64,000 nucleotides of DNA from Streptomyces sp. NBC_01304 (GTDB lineage Bacteria > Actinomycetota > Actinomycetes > Streptomycetales > Streptomycetaceae). Within the stretch, counting starts at the first letter, position 1. Each line of letters opens with the position of its first letter. The notes beneath the pieces were generated by a model. The model worked only from the letters and a program-made list of their open reading frames with translations, did not search any database and was not told the origin of the DNA. The stretch covers positions 4,154,001-4,218,000 of the forward strand of contig NZ_CP109055.1 of the NCBI RefSeq assembly GCF_035975855.1. Direction: 5' to 3'. Position numbers and translations under genes: made by a program. Below are positions 15,448 through 22,440 of the stretch, piece by piece.

Positions 15448-16620
15448 ATGCATCCGATGGTGAAACCTGCGCTGCGGCGCGCCTGGCGGGATCTCACCAC
15501 CGTGCAGTTCGGCATCGCACCCGCACACGCGGTGGTGCTCGGACCGCTCGACCTGGCGACGGCCGGCCTGCTCCACCGGCTCGACGGCACGCGCGGGTTG
15601 CCGCTGCTGCGCGAGGAAGGACACGGGCTCGGGCTGCCCGAAGGACATGTGGACATGCTGGTGGAGCGGCTGGCCGCGGCAGGTCTGCTCGATGACACCA
15701 CGGGCGGCGGTCCGGCCGCGGACGCGCTGCGCCGCAGGCCGGGCGCGCTGGACCGGCTGCGCCCCGATCTGGCGTCGCTGTCCCTCGTGGACCGGGAACC
15801 CACGGGCGGGATAAGGCGGTTGGCGGCACGGAGCGCCATGCGTGTCCAGGTGCGAGGCGCCGGCCGGGTGGGGGCGGGCATCGCCGCCGTGCTCTCGGGG
15901 GCGGCGGTCGGCAAGGTCGATGTGCTGGAGGGCGGGTGCGTCGAGCCGTGGGACGTGTCGCCCGGCGGGCTGCCCGCGCAGTCGGTCGGGGAGCGCAGGG
16001 ACGCGGCCGCACGACGCCTGGTGCGCCGATGCGCACCGGTCCGACCACCACGACGGAGGCGAACCGGACCCGCGGGCAGCGGCGAGGTACCCGAGGACGG
16101 GCAGGGCGTCGAGCCGGGGCTTTCGCTCGTGGTGGTGGCGCCGCGGGACGGTCTGGCCGCCTTCGCACCCGACCCCGCTGTCGTGGAGCCACTCGTGGCG
16201 GCGGGCACACCGCATCTTTTCGCGGGGGTGATCGAGGGCACCGGGGTGGTGGGGCCGTTGGTGCTGCCGGGCGTTTCAGGCTGCGCCGGGTGTCTCGATC
16301 TCGGGCGGGCGGAGCGGGACGCCGGGTGGCTGCGGATGCTGGCCCAGTGGCGCTCGGGGCGGGCGTCCAGGGCGGTGCCGTCCTGTGATCTGGCGCTGGC
16401 GACGGCGGTCGCGGGGCTTGCCGCCTCGCATGCACTGGCCTTCCTGGACGGGGCGCTCCCGGCTGCCGTCGGGACACGGTGGGAGGCTCCGCTGCCGGGG
16501 CTCGACTGGCGGTCGGAGCGGGTGCGGCCGCACCCCGACTGCTCCTGCGGGGCGGCCTCTCGAGATGAGAGGGAGGACACCTCAAGAGAACGCGCGTCAC
16601 ACGAGACAATGGCCGGGTAA
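15448..16620 (+). CDS. ThiF/E1-like protein of the cyclodehydratase (TOMM leader-binding) type
   Basis: 390 residues. The N-terminal part (1-120) is a winged-helix-like region of the kind that binds leader peptides in azole/TOMM pathways. From about 130 a Rossmann E1-like fold appears (VRGAGRVGAGIAAVL, then VDVLEGGCVEPWDV). Two paired cysteine motifs, CAGC near residue 278 and CSC near 370, fit the zinc-binding Cys4 of E1 and ThiF proteins. No separate YcaO or peptidase maturation gene is adjacent, so a natural-product role is not shown. ATG at 15448 has a GGGGGAC ribosome site. The ABC1 kinase gene follows 91 nt later on the same strand. Confidence 0.72.
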   Translation: MHPMVKPALRRAWRDLTTVQFGIAPAHAVVLGPLDLATAGLLHRLDGTRGLPLLREEGHGLGLPEGHVDMLVERLAAAGLLDDTTGGGPAADALRRRPGALDRLRPDLASLSLVDREPTGGIRRLAARSAMRVQVRGAGRVGAGIAAVLSGAAVGKVDVLEGGCVEPWDVSPGGLPAQSVGERRDAAARRLVRRCAPVRPPRRRRTGPAGSGEVPEDGQGVEPGLSLVVVAPRDGLAAFAPDPAVVEPLVAAGTPHLFAGVIEGTGVVGPLVLPGVSGCAGCLDLGRAERDAGWLRMLAQWRSGRASRAVPSCDLALATAVAGLAASHALAFLDGALPAAVGTRWEAPLPGLDWRSERVRPHPDCSCGAASRDEREDTSRERASHETMAG

Positions 16621-16711
16621 CGACCGTCGGCGGGAGCAGGTGCCGACGCTCAGGGGCACAGGCCATGCCGAGGGCACAAGCGGCACAGCTGTCTGGGAAT
16701 TGGAGGGGCGC

Positions 16712-18097
16712 ATGTCTGATCTTCCCCGGAAGGCGGTCACCCGGACCGCCAAGCTGGCCGCGCTGCCACTCGGCTTCGCGGGCCGGGCGACATGGGGGCT
16801 CGGTAAGCGGATCGGCGGCAAGTCGGCGGAGATCGTGGCCCGTGAGCTGCAACAACGCACGGCGGAGCAGCTGTTCAAGGTGCTCGGTGAGCTCAAGGGC
16901 GGGGCCATGAAGTTCGGGCAGGCACTGTCCGTCTTCGAGTCGGCACTGCCGGAGGAGATAGCCGGGCCCTACCGCGCCGCGCTCACCAAGCTGCAGGAAG
17001 CGGCGCCGCCGATGCCGACGCGCACCGTGCATGCGGTGCTCGCCGAACGGCTCGGCGAGGACTGGCGGGAGCAGTTCCTCGAGTTCGAGGACAAGCCGTC
17101 GGCCGCCGCGTCCATCGGCCAGGTGCACCGGGCCATCTGGCACGACGGCCGGCAGGTCGCCGTCAAGGTGCAGTACCCGGGCGCCGGGGAGGCGCTGCTC
17201 TCCGACCTGAATCAACTCAGCCGGTTCGCGCGCCTGCTCGGCCCGCTGATTCCGGGGATGGACATCAAGCCGCTCATCTCCGAGCTGCGCGACCGGGTGT
17301 CCGAGGAACTCGACTACGGCCTGGAGGCGCAGGCCCAGCGGGCGCACGCCGAGGAGTTCGCGGGCGATCCGGATGTGCTGGTGCCCGCTGTGGTGCATCA
17401 GTGCGAGCAGGTCCTGGTGACCGAGTGGATCGACGGGATACCCCTGTCCGAGGTGATCGCGGACGGCACCGAGGAGCAGCGCAACCGGGCGGGTCAGCTC
17501 CTGACCAGGTTCCTCTTCTCCGGCCCGGCCCGCACCGGACTGCTGCACGCCGACCCGCACCCGGGCAACTTCCGGCTGCTGCCCACCGGGGAGGGCGGCG
17601 AGGACGGCGAAGGGGACGTGGCCCACTGGCGGCTCGGGGTGCTCGACTTCGGCACGGTGGACCGGCTGCCGGGCGGACTGCCCGACACGATCGGCTATGC
17701 CCTGCGGATGACGATCGAGGGCGAAGCCGAGGCGGTGTACGAGATGTTGCGCGAGGAGGGCTTCGTCAAGGAGTCCATAGACCTCGACCCGGACGCGGTG
17801 CTCGACTATCTGCTGCCGATCATCGAGCCCGCCCAGGCCGACGCGTTCGAGTTCACCCGGAGCTGGATCCGCAATCAGGCGGGGCGGATCGCCGATCCCC
17901 GCTCCCCCGCGCATCAGTTGGGCAAGCAGTTGAATCTGCCGCCCTCGTATCTGCTGATACACCGGGTGACGCTCAGCACGATCGGGGTGCTCTGTCAGCT
18001 GGGGGCGACGGTGCGGATGCGGGACGAACTCGAGGCGTGGCTGCCCGGATTCCTGCCCGAGGACGAGTCCGAGGCCGAGGCGGCCGTCGAGGCCTGA
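16712..18097 (+). CDS. ABC1/UbiB (AarF) family atypical kinase
   Basis: 461 residues. All family marks are present: KFGQ at 67-70, the Ala-rich loop AAAS at 131-134 in place of a normal P-loop, VAVKVQYPG with the ATP-binding Lys, the catalytic HADPHPGN, and the metal-binding LDFG (about residue 310). ABC1 proteins support quinone biosynthesis or membrane lipid homeostasis; in Streptomyces the quinone would be menaquinone. No transmembrane anchor is obvious at the C-terminus. ATG at 16712 has TGGAGGGG just upstream. It probably shares a transcript with the ThiF-like gene. Confidence 0.92.
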   Translation: MSDLPRKAVTRTAKLAALPLGFAGRATWGLGKRIGGKSAEIVARELQQRTAEQLFKVLGELKGGAMKFGQALSVFESALPEEIAGPYRAALTKLQEAAPPMPTRTVHAVLAERLGEDWREQFLEFEDKPSAAASIGQVHRAIWHDGRQVAVKVQYPGAGEALLSDLNQLSRFARLLGPLIPGMDIKPLISELRDRVSEELDYGLEAQAQRAHAEEFAGDPDVLVPAVVHQCEQVLVTEWIDGIPLSEVIADGTEEQRNRAGQLLTRFLFSGPARTGLLHADPHPGNFRLLPTGEGGEDGEGDVAHWRLGVLDFGTVDRLPGGLPDTIGYALRMTIEGEAEAVYEMLREEGFVKESIDLDPDAVLDYLLPIIEPAQADAFEFTRSWIRNQAGRIADPRSPAHQLGKQLNLPPSYLLIHRVTLSTIGVLCQLGATVRMRDELEAWLPGFLPEDESEAEAAVEA

Positions 18098-18461: not shown

Positions 18462-18785
18462 TCAGTGCATGACCGCCATGGCGAGCGCGCGGCGGGCACG
18501 CAGCGACGCGCGCTCGGCGCGGCGCTGCATCCGGCGGGCGGTGATCAGCCGCAGGGCGAGGCGCTCGGAAGCGGCCTCACGGCGTTGCTCGTGCATATGT
18601 GCGCGAGCCAGGGCTTCTGGTTGGAGTTGCATTTCGCGGGTCCTGTTCTGGCGCGAGGAGTTCGCACCGAAGTTGTACGTGTCTGTGGTCGCGGAGCCGG
18701 CGGGCTCGCTGGTGAAGGGCTTCATCGGGGCCTGATTCATGGGGTCGTGCGTGTGGGGGCGATCGATGGTTCCGGTGGCGTTCAT
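18462..18785 (-). CDS. Small basic protein translationally coupled to wblC
   Basis: 107 residues. The C-terminal half is an amphipathic, Arg-rich helical region (LARAHMHEQRREAASERLALRL, with further RRMQRRAERASLRARRALA), isoelectrically very basic and suited to RNA or DNA contact. The N-terminal half is hydrophilic and weakly conserved in appearance. The ATG at 18785 overlaps the wblC stop (ATGA), so it should be translated from the wblC message and share its induction. Later ATGs (MKPFTSE, MQLQPEA) are alternatives if coupling is not used. No known family recognised. Confidence 0.65.
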   Translation of the reverse strand: MNATGTIDRPHTHDPMNQAPMKPFTSEPAGSATTDTYNFGANSSRQNRTREMQLQPEALARAHMHEQRREAASERLALRLITARRMQRRAERASLRARRALAMAVMH

Positions 18786-19147
18786 GCGGCGACCGGGTTC
18801 TTGCGCGGGCGACCACGCGGCCGCTTGCGGGCAACGACCACACCCTGGACGAACAGCTCGCCACCCCAGACGCCCCACGGCTCACGCCGCTCCTTGGCGC
18901 CGGCCAGGCAGGCCTCCATCAGCGGGCAGGTACGGCAGAGCGACTTGGCGTACTCGACATCGGCCGGCGACTCGGCGAAGAAGACCTCCGGGTCGAAGCT
19001 GCGGCAGGGGACGGGTACGCCGAGGTTCTCGATGGCGTCGTCGAGCGCGGTGAGCGCAGTGAGCGGAGTCAAGGTGTTCTCCTGAAGGCCGGGCGGCGGG
19101 ATGGTCTCTGAAGGCGGTACGGACGGGGCGTGCGTTTCGGTCTGCAC
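18782..19147 (-). CDS. wblC: WblC (WhiB7-type) Fe-S transcriptional regulator
   Basis: 121 residues. Four cysteines in WhiB spacing (C48, C71, C74, C80) bind a 4Fe-4S cluster. G-V-W-G-G (92-96) contacts the sigma factor, and the C-terminal RGRPRK (111-116) is the AT-hook that defines the WhiB7/WblC subclass. WhiB7 proteins act with the main sigma factor to switch on intrinsic antibiotic resistance genes, especially after ribosome inhibition. GTG at 19147 has GAGGAA 10 nt upstream. The gene has a leader of about 600 nt with an upstream ORF and a terminator. AT-rich DNA just above the predicted -35 would allow autoregulation. The stop overlaps the next gene (ATGA). Confidence 0.95.
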   Translation of the reverse strand: MQTETHAPSVPPSETIPPPGLQENTLTPLTALTALDDAIENLGVPVPCRSFDPEVFFAESPADVEYAKSLCRTCPLMEACLAGAKERREPWGVWGGELFVQGVVVARKRPRGRPRKNPVAA

Positions 19148-19249: not shown

Positions 19250-19297
19250 CGGGGAAAACAGAAGGGCCGCGGATCCCGGGTGGGATTCCGCGGCCCT
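19250..19297 (-). terminator. Attenuator-type terminator in the wblC leader
   Basis: A 15-bp G/C stem with one bulged A (AGGGCCGCGGAATCCC against its partner), a 4-nt loop and a U-rich tail (UUCUGUUUU) on the minus-strand RNA. It begins 22 nt after the stop of the upstream ORF and ends about 100 nt before the wblC start. This position is typical of transcription attenuators. Confidence 0.8.
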
Positions 19298-19308
19298 GAA
19301 GGCGCCGG

Positions 19309-19324
19309 CCTGATCTGGATCAGG
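19309..19324 (-). promoter_or_regulatory. Small hairpin over the upstream-ORF stop codon
   Basis: CCTGATCCAGATCAGG folds as a 6-bp stem with a 4-nt loop. The uORF stop TGA is inside the 5' arm. A terminating ribosome would melt it. It sits directly before the terminator stem. Confidence 0.5.
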
Positions 19325-19649
19325 CTGGATCACTCCAGGGTTCGAGCCCGCGGAAGGCCCACATGTGCTGCTGCGTCGTCTGCTTCCGGGATCCGGCACC
19401 GGCTGCCGCAAAGGCATAGGCATGTGCCTGGGCCGTTGCTACTGCTGCTTCCGGTGCCAACATCGGTCGCTCATCACGCTCATTGCGCTCACGGCTCACA
19501 AGAGCCGGGAGACCCAGGGCGGCGACGGGGCTGGCGGCATTAATGCCGGACAGACCGGTGCCCTGGAACGAGATGCCGAGCGGGCAGGTGGCGACGACCG
19601 AGCGATCGACGTCGGTCAGTTTGATGTTGCTCTGGTTGATGCTGATCAC
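19320..19649 (-). CDS. Upstream ORF (109 aa) in the wblC leader
   Basis: An open frame starting GTG at 19649 with a near-ideal ribosome site (AGGAGG, 8-nt spacing), ending in TGA 22 nt before the attenuator. The product starts MISINQSNIKLTDVDRS, has a middle RERNERDERP stretch, then an Ala-rich hydrophobic run, and ends WAFRGLEPWSDPA. No family is recognised. Codons for AFRGLEP near its end encode a TTCCGCGG segment (19348-19355) that pairs perfectly with eight bases of the terminator 5' arm (19286-19293). So ribosome position on this ORF could choose between terminator and antiterminator. Translation is probable from the ribosome site; a function of the peptide itself is not shown. Confidence 0.65.
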   Translation of the reverse strand: MISINQSNIKLTDVDRSVVATCPLGISFQGTGLSGINAASPVAALGLPALVSRERNERDERPMLAPEAAVATAQAHAYAFAAAGAGSRKQTTQQHMWAFRGLEPWSDPA

Positions 19650-19756
19650 TGGACTCGCCTCCTCTCGGCGTCTCGGAGACCGGGGTGAACCGGTCAAGGT
19701 TGTTAAGTACAGCACGGAACCAGGGCTTCAGAGAAGTCGCTGTTCCCGTGGTTAAG

Positions 19757-19786
19757 AACCTATGGGTCTTCCTTGGGCGTGCGCAA
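19757..19786 (-). promoter_or_regulatory. Predicted wblC promoter
   Basis: On the minus strand TTGCGC (-35, 19781-19786) and TAGGTT (-10, 19757-19762) are separated by 18 nt. An AT-rich patch (GAAAATAGT, 19787-19795) lies directly upstream, where an AT-hook WhiB7 protein would bind. The start point would be about 100 nt before the uORF. Confidence 0.5.
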
Positions 19787-19809
19787 ACTATTTTCTCGAC
19801 GAGTTTGTA

Positions 19810-22026
19810 TCAGTCGCCCTCGACCACTGCTTCAACTCCCGTCTCAGGCTCCTCACCTGCACAGATGGCCAGGACGTCGGCGCCGAAGCGATCCATTTTC
19901 CGGACCCCGACGCCGGCGATGCGGGCGAGCTCGCCCTCGGCCGACGGACAGGCCTCGGCGATCGCCATGAGCGTCTTGTCCGTGAACACGCAGTATGCGG
20001 GCTGGCTGAGCTGGGCCGCCTGCTCGGCCCGCCAGTCGCGCAGGCGCTCATAGAGTCCTTCGTCCATGTCGGAAGGACAGTCTTCGCACCGCATCAGCTT
20101 CATCTCGCCGGCGTCGGTCAGTGTCCGCCCGCACACGCGGCAGTGCACGGGACCCCGGCTCCGGCGCTTGCGGGCCGCCCCGCGCTCGATGCCGCCCGCA
20201 CCGCCCGCGCTGCGGGGGGCGGCCGCGGCCGAGCCCGGCCGCAGGCCGTTCAGGAACCGGCTGGGCCGGCGCGAGGCGCGGCCGCCGGGCGAGCGGGACA
20301 GCGCCCAGGACAGGGAGAGGTGCACCCGGGCCCGGGTGACCCCGACATAGAGGAGGCGGCGCTCCTCCTCGACCTGCTCGTCGGTCTTGGCGTACGCGAT
20401 CGGCAGCATGCCTTCGGTAAGGCCGACCAGGAAGACCGCGTCCCACTCCAGGCCCTTGGCCGCGTGCAGCGAGGCGAGCGTGACGCCCTCCACGGTCGGC
20501 GCGTGCTGGGCGGCGGCCCGCTCGTCGAGCTCCGCGATCAGGTCGGAGAGCGTGGCTTCGGGCCGGACCCGGGCGAAGTCCTCGGCCAGGCGGACCAGCG
20601 CCGCCAGGGACTCCCAGCGGTCCCGGACCGCGCCGGAGCCCGCCGGGGGCTGGCTCGTCCAGCCCTTGGTGGACAGCACGGCCCGCACCTGCGAGGGCAC
20701 GTCCACGGCGTCGTCGAGCAGCGCGTCATTGCCGCCGAAGCGGGCCGCCCCGCGCAGGGCCGCGCCCGCCTCGCGGACCTCCTGGCGCTCGAAGAACCGC
20801 TCGGCGCCGCGCAGCTGGTACGGCACACCGGCGTCGGCGAGCGCCTGCTCGTACAGCTCGGACTGGCCGTTCGTCCGGAAGAGCACCGCGATCTCGCCGG
20901 CCGTGACGCCAGACTTGATCAGGTCGCGGATGCGGCGGGCGGTGTGCTCCGCCTCGGTGGGCTCGTCGCCGTACTCCGTGTAGACCGGCTCGGGTCCGGC
21001 CTCGCGCTGGGAGATCAGTTCCAGGCGGTGCTCGGCGGCGCGGCCCTTGGCCTGGGCGAGCAGGCCGTTGGCGAGGTGGACGACCTGGGGCGTGGAGCGG
21101 TAGTCGCGGACCAGTTTCACGACCGTGGCCTGCGGGTGCCGGGTGCGGAAGTTCAGGAGGTGGTCGGGGGTCGCGCCGGTGAAGGAGTAGATCGTCTGGC
21201 TGGCGTCGCCGACCACGCAGAGGTTGTCCCGGTCGCCGAGCCACAGTTCCAGGAGGCGCTGCTGGAGCGGGCTGACGTCCTGGTACTCGTCCACCACGAA
21301 GTGCGAGTACTGGGAGCGGACCTGCTCCGCGACGGCGTAGTTGTCCTGCAGGATGCCGACCGTCAGGAGCAGTACGTCCTCGAAGTCGATGACGCCGCGG
21401 TCCTGCTTCAGCTGCTCGTACATGGCGTAGATCTGGGAGATCTCGGCCGGGTCGCGGGGTACCTCGCGGCCGGCCTTGAGGGCGATGGCCGGGTAGTCGA
21501 CGGGGACGGTCTGGGTGACCTTGGACCACTCGATCTCGCCGGTGACATCGCGCAGCTCACCCCGGTCGAGCCGGATCCGGCAGCGGGCCGCGGCCTCTGC
21601 GACCAGCTGGACCTTCCGCTCGACCAGGCGGGGCAGCGGTCCGCCGACGGCCTTGGGCCAGAAGTACTGGAGCTGGCGCAGGGCGGCGGAGTGGAAGGTG
21701 CGGGCCTGCACGCCGTTGACCCCGAGTTGGCGGAGGCGCCCGCGCATCTCCCCCGCGGCGCGGTTGGTGAAGGTGACGGCGAGCACGCCGCCCGGGGGCA
21801 GGATGCCCGCCCGCACCCCGTACGCGATCCGGTGGGTGATCGCCCGGGTCTTGCCCGTGCCGGCACCGGCCAGCACGCACACAGGCCCCTGCAGGGCGGT
21901 GGCCACCGCGCGCTGCTCGGGGTCCAGCCCGGCGAGCACGGCGTCCGCGTCCGGGGGCGGGGCCGTGTACTGGCCTGTGCCGCCCGGTTCCTGCGGGAAC
22001 AGTGGGGAGTGCGTTGCTGATGTCAC
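19810..22026 (-). CDS. UvrD2-like superfamily 1 DNA helicase with HRDC domain
   Basis: 738 residues. SF1A motor motifs are in order: Walker A GAGTGKT, TFTNRAA (Ia), VDEYQD (II), GDASQTIYSF (III), RDYRSTP (IV), the helicase 2B insertion, LHAAKGLEWDAVFLVG (V) and VGVTRA (VI). A four-cysteine zinc knuckle follows (CRVC ... CEDC, near residues 640-665), and a C-terminal HRDC domain (FTDKTLMAIAEACPS, then GVGVRKMDRFG). This arrangement is that of actinobacterial UvrD2, a repair helicase. GTG at 22026 has no strong ribosome site, and the longer upstream frame is not supported. It is divergent from mycoredoxin; the spacer holds a DnaA box. Confidence 0.9.
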   Translation of the reverse strand: MTSATHSPLFPQEPGGTGQYTAPPPDADAVLAGLDPEQRAVATALQGPVCVLAGAGTGKTRAITHRIAYGVRAGILPPGGVLAVTFTNRAAGEMRGRLRQLGVNGVQARTFHSAALRQLQYFWPKAVGGPLPRLVERKVQLVAEAAARCRIRLDRGELRDVTGEIEWSKVTQTVPVDYPAIALKAGREVPRDPAEISQIYAMYEQLKQDRGVIDFEDVLLLTVGILQDNYAVAEQVRSQYSHFVVDEYQDVSPLQQRLLELWLGDRDNLCVVGDASQTIYSFTGATPDHLLNFRTRHPQATVVKLVRDYRSTPQVVHLANGLLAQAKGRAAEHRLELISQREAGPEPVYTEYGDEPTEAEHTARRIRDLIKSGVTAGEIAVLFRTNGQSELYEQALADAGVPYQLRGAERFFERQEVREAGAALRGAARFGGNDALLDDAVDVPSQVRAVLSTKGWTSQPPAGSGAVRDRWESLAALVRLAEDFARVRPEATLSDLIAELDERAAAQHAPTVEGVTLASLHAAKGLEWDAVFLVGLTEGMLPIAYAKTDEQVEEERRLLYVGVTRARVHLSLSWALSRSPGGRASRRPSRFLNGLRPGSAAAAPRSAGGAGGIERGAARKRRSRGPVHCRVCGRTLTDAGEMKLMRCEDCPSDMDEGLYERLRDWRAEQAAQLSQPAYCVFTDKTLMAIAEACPSAEGELARIAGVGVRKMDRFGADVLAICAGEEPETGVEAVVEGD

Positions 22027-22065
22027 CCCGCCATGCTGCCAGGTCGGCGGAGGTGGCCGAGCCCG

Positions 22066-22074
22066 TTGTCCACA
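22066..22074 (+). promoter_or_regulatory. DnaA box (single)
   Basis: TTGTCCACA, the preferred Streptomyces DnaA box, in the divergent spacer between the helicase and mycoredoxin genes. It is upstream of the SigR-type promoter. Confidence 0.4.
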
Positions 22075-22101
22075 GGGGTGCAGCATTGGTCGTACTAATG
22101 C

Positions 22102-22128
22102 GGGAATGGTGACCGGGTCGCGTACGTT
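22102..22128 (+). promoter_or_regulatory. SigR-type promoter of mycoredoxin
   Basis: GGGAAT at 22102-22107, then exactly 18 nt, then GTT at 22126-22128. This matches the thiol-oxidative-stress sigma factor SigR consensus (GGAAT, 18-19 nt, GTT) and sits about 70 nt before the start codon. Confidence 0.7.
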
Positions 22129-22197
22129 CAAAGCAGGTGCGAGGACGCACCCGAGCGGTGTGCGGAACGCACCGAGCAGCGAAGGAGCACAAAAGAC

Positions 22198-22440
22198 ATG
22201 CCGGGCACTGTGACGATGTACAGCACCACGTGGTGCGGCTACTGCCAGCGGCTGAAGAAGCAGCTGGACCGCGAGGGCATCGCGTACAAGGAAATCAACA
22301 TCGAGCACGACCCGGAGTCCGCGGCGTTCGTCGAGAAGGCGAACGGCGGCAACCAGACGGTCCCGACCGTGCTCTTCGAGGACGGCTCGACGCTGACCAA
22401 CCCTTCGCTCGCCCAGGTCAAGCAGAAGGTCGGCGCCTGA
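22198..22440 (+). CDS. mrx1: Mycoredoxin
   Basis: 80 residues, a glutaredoxin-fold oxidoreductase with the CGYC active site (Cys13, Cys16) in YSTTWCGYC, plus the conserved TVPTV cis-Pro loop (about residue 56) and GxTLTNPS. Mycoredoxins reduce mycothiol-mixed disulfides in actinobacteria, which use mycothiol instead of glutathione. ATG at 22198 has AAGGAG 10 nt upstream. The SigR-type promoter upstream suggests induction by thiol oxidation. A terminator follows the stop, so it is monocistronic. Confidence 0.93.
   Translation: MPGTVTMYSTTWCGYCQRLKKQLDREGIAYKEINIEHDPESAAFVEKANGGNQTVPTVLFEDGSTLTNPSLAQVKQKVGA

Follow-up and report, generated by a model that had tools for sequence, protein, structure and literature searches.

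The wblC leader of Streptomyces sp. NBC_01304, a probable ribosome-controlled transcription attenuator: anatomy and conservation

The leader of wblC (whiB7) in Streptomyces sp. NBC_01304 is very probably the ribosome-controlled attenuator already known for this gene. The sequence-only reading of the locus had proposed that slow or stalled translation of an upstream open reading frame (uORF) turns wblC on; this proposal fits the comparative evidence and has already been published for the gene. The leader is ordinary in kind: it is an ortholog, in another Streptomyces, of the known wblC attenuator, here confirmed in detail. What the analysis shows directly is the structures and their conservation, the conservation of the uORF frame and the weakness of selection on the encoded peptide.

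The window is the whole stretch of DNA that was analysed, 64,000 nucleotides of contig NZ_CP109055.1, and all positions are counted from its first letter. The promoter core, the uORF, the terminator and wblC follow one another in this order on the minus strand:

19757..19795, minus strand: putative promoter (regular-expression match, coordinates by eye)
19795-19790, minus strand: WblC box GAAAAT, followed by 3 nt to the -35
19786-19781, minus strand: -35 TTGCGC, followed by 18 nt to the -10
19762-19757, minus strand: -10 TAGGTT
19658..19663, minus strand: ribosome site AGGAGG of the uORF, placed by eye, 8 nt before the start
19320..19649, minus strand: uORF of 109 codons, GTG start at 19649, TGA stop 19322-19320; homologous frame in 67/67 same-genus loci
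19395..19458, minus strand: predicted hairpin P1 inside the uORF (RNAalifold), arms 19458-19451 and 19402-19395, 95% of cells paired in 67 loci
19280..19362, minus strand: predicted antiterminator, 31 pairs, -48.7 kcal/mol for transcript 19370-19279
19362-19358/19284-19280, minus strand: antiterminator helix
19355-19348/19293-19286, minus strand: antiterminator helix
19340-19333 and 19331, 19328-19327 with 19306-19294 in part, minus strand: antiterminator helix
19308..19325 (19325-19319/19314-19308), minus strand: apical hairpin GCCTGAT/ATCAGGC, which encloses the uORF stop UGA
19255..19297, minus strand: predicted intrinsic terminator, stem 19297-19263, T-rich tail to 19255, -31.6 kcal/mol
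18782..19147, minus strand: wblC (WhiB7), 121 aa, GTG start; Pfam WhiB PF02467, E 1.4e-14, above cut-off

A WhiB7-type gene thus lies directly downstream of the leader. Its product also gives 15.3 bits with the Pfam AT_hook (PF02178), which is under the cut-off of 17.4. A WhiB match at E ≤ 0.001 was found in 148/148 genomes of the class, a count that includes other WhiB paralogs. The stop codon of wblC contains the start (ATGA) of a 107-residue ORF (18462-18785, minus strand), which is basic by eye and has no Pfam match. An ATGA or GTGA overlap of wblC with this ORF is present in 43/43 same-genus loci with enough sequence, and the pN/pS of the coupled ORF is 0.47 over the 43 loci. Control by the attenuator would extend to this ORF, whose product may be a WblC partner. 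A gene for a UvrD-type helicase with an HRDC domain (19810-22308, minus strand) lies directly upstream of the wblC promoter. Beyond the wblC region, an ABC1-type atypical kinase gene (16385-18097) is on the opposite, plus strand.

The WblC box of the window agrees with the GAAAWY rule given for this box in the relevant passages of PMC7157823. Among the 67 same-genus loci, 66 have the promoter core AAAATAGTTTGC, 65 have it followed by ATAG, and only 15 have the strict GAAAWY form; a relaxed pattern fits 51 of the 76 loci of other families, in a count made without a control. Judged by its sequence, the promoter appears to be autoregulated, the WblC box before the -35 being a putative binding site.

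The genus search covered 61 genomes, the window's own included, 59 with and two without a uORF match; the genus alignment of 67 loci is made of leaders from the searched genomes and of eight same-genus leaders from the class sample. The latter holds 148 genomes in 81 genera, in which 83 loci outside the genus were fetched and 76 counted. The seven loci dropped are L085 and L096 (variant hairpins missed by the search pattern), L105, L120, L136 and L137 (no terminator given by the scan) and L111 (false terminator). A covariance model of the element later placed it in front of wblC in five of these genomes, those of L085, L105, L111, L120 and L137, the genomes of L096 and L136 lying outside the model search.

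A uORF was counted if it had at least 40 codons, a ribosome site and a stop 8–32 nt before the GGCC of the terminator. Such a frame occurs in 67/67 same-genus loci (2.8% of shuffles) and in 73/76 loci of other families (1.4% of shuffles). The sequence-only reading had made its case depend on conservation of this frame, and had described an ideal ribosome site and a stop 22 nt before the terminator; the frame is conserved, and the AGGAGG 8 nt before GTG 19649, the 109 codons to TGA and the gap of 22 nt between the stop and the terminator hairpin were all found again. It had also called 109 codons unusually long for a leader peptide; in this family of leaders, long uORFs are normal. The length ranges from 88 to 127 codons among the 67 same-genus loci, and the median is 108 codons in the genus compared with 78 in other families.

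A Rho-independent terminator is predicted from the sequence between the uORF and wblC, which bears out the strong U-tailed terminator reported earlier. It is missing from the list of a generic promoter/terminator scan, and its stem carries a bulge. Within the genus the terminator hardly varies and therefore says little about covariation there. In other families its stem shows 91% pairing and 29 double-change cells, values reached by 0/300 column shuffles. When the whole leader is present the terminator is the minimum-energy fold, so the switch must be kinetic.

When the transcript is cut at 19279, where only the 5' arm of the terminator is present, the predicted fold of the leader from 19370 is a single extended hairpin of -48.7 kcal/mol, which includes GUGGG, UUCCGCGG, CCCUGGAG and the stop hairpin, up to the terminator arm. 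The sequence-only reading had noticed a small hairpin across the stop codon and an 8-base complement with the terminator arm. Both are real: the hairpin is GCCTGAT/ATCAGGC, and TTCCGCGG at 19355-19348 is the perfect complement of CCGCGGAA at 19293-19286. In the folding model they are parts of one 31-pair antiterminator, which would absorb the 5' arm of the terminator.

The alignment of Streptomyces leaders that had been suggested as a check for covariation supports this structure: 96.9% of the cells of the 31 pairs are standard in the 67 same-genus loci, and parsimony on one FastTree tree of these loci gives eight double-change events. Pair 19325/19308 changes from GC to AU in three events and pair 19324/19309 from CG to UA in four, while 19353/19288 shows one. 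Since the first two of these pairs fall within the last sense codon, the Ala, Val or Thr encoded there follows the pairing. The fold has a z-score below -2 in 65/67 genus loci and 54/76 other-family loci. Pairing with the terminator arm beats 95% of shuffles in 60/67 genus loci but in only 27/76 loci of other families; shuffled GC-rich RNA likewise pairs with this arm. When all pairs of the genus alignment were scanned blindly for covariation against tree-based nulls, the best E was 4.7; the top pairs are read as clade effects.

The other families provide further support. Their stop hairpin is 74% paired with 23 double-change cells, neither value being reached in 300 column shuffles; the terminator and the stop hairpin thus covary in these families as well (76 loci). 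The values of helix B are reached by 1/500 partner shuffles; for helix A, the paired fraction is reached by 9/300 shuffles and the number of double-change cells by 51/300. These shuffles ignore relatedness, and the values are supports rather than probabilities. All three helices treated by columns have a lower paired fraction once the partner is slid. Some slid versions of helix A have more double-change cells (32 and 29 versus 24), and the slid stop hairpin reaches a pairing of 0.48 at best versus 0.74, with one version at 27 double-change cells versus 23. The register of these families pairs GGGNUCCGC with GCGGANCCC, and UGGAG with CUCCA. The models thus predict an antiterminator built of uORF and terminator sequence, with a helix A that is weak outside the genus.

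The effect of the position of the ribosome was computed by folding the RNA ahead of it, with the front of the ribosome placed 13 nt beyond the first A-site base and the RNA behind it ignored. Upstream RNA takes the 5' arm of the terminator with a probability of 0.92 at each of the 11 A-site codons tested from 1 to 93, falling to 0.85 at codon 94, 0.60 at codon 96 and 0.40 at codon 98. This probability lies between 0.27 and 0.62 at the codons tested from 100 to 110, and is about 0.45 at the stop, where the arm is still partly paired with RNA ahead of the ribosome. The model therefore predicts that a ribosome stalled at any point in roughly the first 93 of the 109 codons leaves the antiterminator intact, as would suit a sensor of broad range.

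We infer the kinetics and the response to drugs as follows. RNA polymerase would start at the WblC-responsive promoter, and a ribosome would start on the uORF. As the anatomy suggests, an unhindered ribosome at or near the stop would open the apical stop hairpin and the adjacent helix; the freed 5' arm of the terminator would pair with the 3' arm, and transcription would end before wblC. If a drug or a missing amino acid slows or stalls the ribosome up to about codon 93, the 31-pair antiterminator would form ahead of it and take the 5' arm, and the polymerase would read into wblC, whose product would then boost its own promoter. The uORF would be kept open and long, with the position of the ribosome acting rather than the identity of the peptide.

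The sequence-only reading had left room for the uORF being an unnamed gene in its own right. Its long conserved frame would suit a small functional protein co-transcribed with wblC, and a search with the peptide finds 1221 protein clusters at E ≤ 1e-3; the names among the 120 of these relatives that were listed are "hypothetical" or "uncharacterized" protein. Selection of the strength expected on a gene product is not what the genomes show, since the median pN/pS of same-genus pairs is 0.87 for the uORF, whereas in the same genomes wblC has 0.26, and the coupled downstream ORF has 0.47 (simple proportions with no correction for repeated changes, from pairs that are not independent). By part, pN/pS is 1.16 for codons 2-40, 0.61 for 41-60, 0.92 for 61-95 and 0.37 for the antiterminator part. 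The conserved end of the uORF lies in the antiterminator, and the last residue changes with its RNA partner. The peptide has no Pfam match at E 0.1 and a single, sub-threshold NCBIfam match, and the codon score of the uORF (0.475) is under those of all 33 long window ORFs (0.60 to 0.88), which were picked by third-position GC ≥ 0.85, a choice that favours contrast. The sequences thus suggest conservation of the frame without the conservation of the peptide that a gene would show, and the own-gene reading is hardly credible. A peptide could also matter in the manner of erm leaders, where the nascent chain itself binds the drug and the ribosome and stalls at fixed codons. R/K-X-R/K-type motifs are macrolide arrest motifs, and R-E-R is found at window codons 53-55 and in 29/67 uORFs, any R/K-X-R/K in 43/67. 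Such motifs are nevertheless rarer in the uORFs (0.65 per 100 aa) than in the window ORFs (1.28). A C-terminal segment around MWAFRGPEPWSDPA is conserved in the genus and W-S-P-P-V precedes the stop in many other-family loci, but the last residue (Ala, Val or Thr) varies with its RNA partner, as noted. As far as the published descriptions go, the known inducers are amino acid starvation and a wide variety of ribosome drugs. A conserved peptide sequence, which an arrest peptide should have, is not apparent from the pN/pS of the first three parts (1.16, 0.61 and 0.92) or from the overall 0.87, and we consider this explanation very improbable.

Finally, the hairpin could be a mere terminator of transcription from the upstream helicase gene, the uORF being incidental. 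It is indeed a strong intrinsic terminator in an intergenic position downstream of the helicase ORF. Three observations argue against this explanation, to which we give almost no credence: the promoter some 460 nt upstream of the terminator has a core shared by 66/67 loci, the uORF arm that pairs with the terminator is conserved, and the distance from the end of the frame to the terminator is fixed. The ribosome-controlled attenuator is the reading retained.

Other roles for the peptide were considered and set aside. W-S-P-P-V-stop as a conserved slow-termination peptide was rejected as the main reading because the stretch lies in covarying RNA helices. The uORF as a panel of amino acids is a weak idea that we do not claim: all 20 residues are present in 60/67 uORFs, but before the last 17 codons at least 19 residues are present in 29/67, as against 31.6% of windows from genes, and 66/67 lack Trp in this part.

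Two features of the uORF were less expected: a further conserved hairpin, P1, and a zone in which rare codons abound. The third-position GC of the uORF is below that of wblC in 67/67 same-genus and 57/73 other loci (last 17 codons excluded). In the 67 loci, rare codons make up 30–41% at positions 31-55 before the stop (about codons 55-79), versus a background of 7.7%, with 28% at positions 26-30 and 58% in the last five codons, which belong to the antiterminator. One result speaks against a special role of the rare codons: 0.4% of windows, found in 9 of the 33 ORFs, equal or beat the poorest 13-codon stretch of the window's uORF. All eight pairs of P1 occur in 113/128 non-identical Streptomyces leaders (best-fit search with no shuffle control). 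P1 pair 19455/19398 is A-U in 62 loci and G-C in five, with two events on one tree; it joins the third bases of codons 65 (GCA) and 84 (GGT), which change together. Local folding at P1 is stronger than in shuffles in the genus (mean z -1.7, 34 loci); in other families the excess is weaker and further upstream (mean z -1.1, 38 loci), every second locus having been used in both cases. The low third-position GC and the rare codons are probably owed in part to RNA structure, namely P1.

Codons 61-62 (CGA CCG; 19464-19469, minus strand) are the same in 66 and 65 of the 67 loci. CGA at codon 61 is kept in 66/66, and makes up 2.6% of the Arg codons in the window ORFs used. None of the helices tested, P1 included, explains these two codons. 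Three candidate helices are not claimed: UCGGUCG/CGACCGA (codons 17-19 with 61-63; 81% paired), ACCGA/UCGGU (codons 12-18; 88% paired) and CCGG/CCGG (codons 31-35; 76% paired). In all three the changes for the most part disrupt pairs, and compensation is not clear.

P1 and the rare-codon zone may serve to time the ribosome against the polymerase. In a more specific version, which is tentative and rather doubtful, the uORF would be a built-in timer, in which P1 halts the polymerase until the ribosome arrives, a race follows and the rare codons tune it. Assuming a pause, P1 would halt RNA polymerase about 105 nt before the 5' arm of the terminator is complete, and the ribosome would open P1 at about codon 60, releasing the polymerase. 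The ribosome would then have about 37 codons (111 nt) to go to codon 97, versus about 105 nt for the polymerase, by arithmetic from the positions of P1 and the antiterminator. The rare-codon zone overlaps this race and would set how small a slowing suffices. If this were true, the leader would measure the mean speed of elongation, and not a particular drug or codon. This pause-and-race reading, which we infer from structure, codon usage and distances, would surprise a specialist.

The covariance model finds a match in 94/118 genomes of the class, many of which are in its own alignment. Among 30 genomes of other genera, absent from the alignment and with a wblC match below 1e-20, 22 have the element on the strand of wblC and no more than 300 nt before it (counted by hand). 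It was missed in the other eight, G098 and seven members of a single small-genome family, of which G172 was placed among four genomes absent from the output of the model search. G090 and G165, both in the model's alignment, have no match in that search. In the window's own genome the model is significant only at the wblC leader. The next match (E 0.1) is at the end of an ORF, which we take to be that of glucose-6-phosphate isomerase; as a second attenuator it was rejected and taken as chance. In a sample of the phylum, 18/149 genomes matched at E ≤ 0.01, including eight outside the class, all weak. In one of the latter, L262 (in G289, of another class of the phylum), the weak match (E 0.0025) is directly followed by a WhiB7-like ORF, which hints that the element arose before the class did. 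No Rfam family reaches its gathering score in the leader, where seven sub-threshold matches are all far from the cut-off; only a tRNA elsewhere in the window reaches one.

The wblC leader has reportedly been studied in S. coelicolor by Lee, Lee and Roe (Mol Microbiol 2022, 117:179). Its attenuation mechanism is described in passages of PMC11550727, PMC9618640, PMC10727445 and PMC12421871, which cite Lee et al. 2022: there is likewise a uORF, a Rho-independent terminator and an antiterminator that forms when translation of the uORF is disturbed. The same sources mention responses to antibiotics (PMC11550727, PMC9618640 and PMC10727445) and to amino acid starvation (PMC11550727 and PMC12421871). 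No difference from the present leader appears in these descriptions, on which the likeness rests, S. coelicolor lying outside the 64 named loci.

Similarly, the mycobacterial whiB7 leader is described in parts of PMC4128351, PMC10727445 and PMC13236596 as having a uORF with a ribosome site, a T-tailed stem-loop and attenuation 3' of the uORF; it is likened here by description, and the other families as a group differ by their register and shorter uORF. The toiL uORF of E. coli topAI, according to passages of PMC12121999, also senses several drug classes with one uORF by stalling at different positions, but it has 8 codons and acts on translation and Rho, whereas the wblC leader has a long uORF and an intrinsic terminator. 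The same text states that stalling within the whiB7 uORF is still to be tested.

The leader differs from trp-type attenuators, of which ilvB1 is a case in the account of PMC13236596, by its predicted response to a stall anywhere in about 93 codons. A curated covariance model could help the annotation of genomes, because no Rfam family reaches its gathering score in the leader. In trp-type attenuators, as in the wblC leader, the position of the ribosome decides between terminator and antiterminator, but they respond to particular amino acids, through a few consecutive codons.

WblC/WhiB7 governs the intrinsic resistance of actinomycetes to many ribosome-targeting drugs, according to PMC7157823. 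The map of the structures and the predicted boundary at codons 94-98 make the question of how one leader senses many drug classes testable with reporters, and the possible synchronising hairpin and rare-codon zone are likewise open to simple reporter tests.
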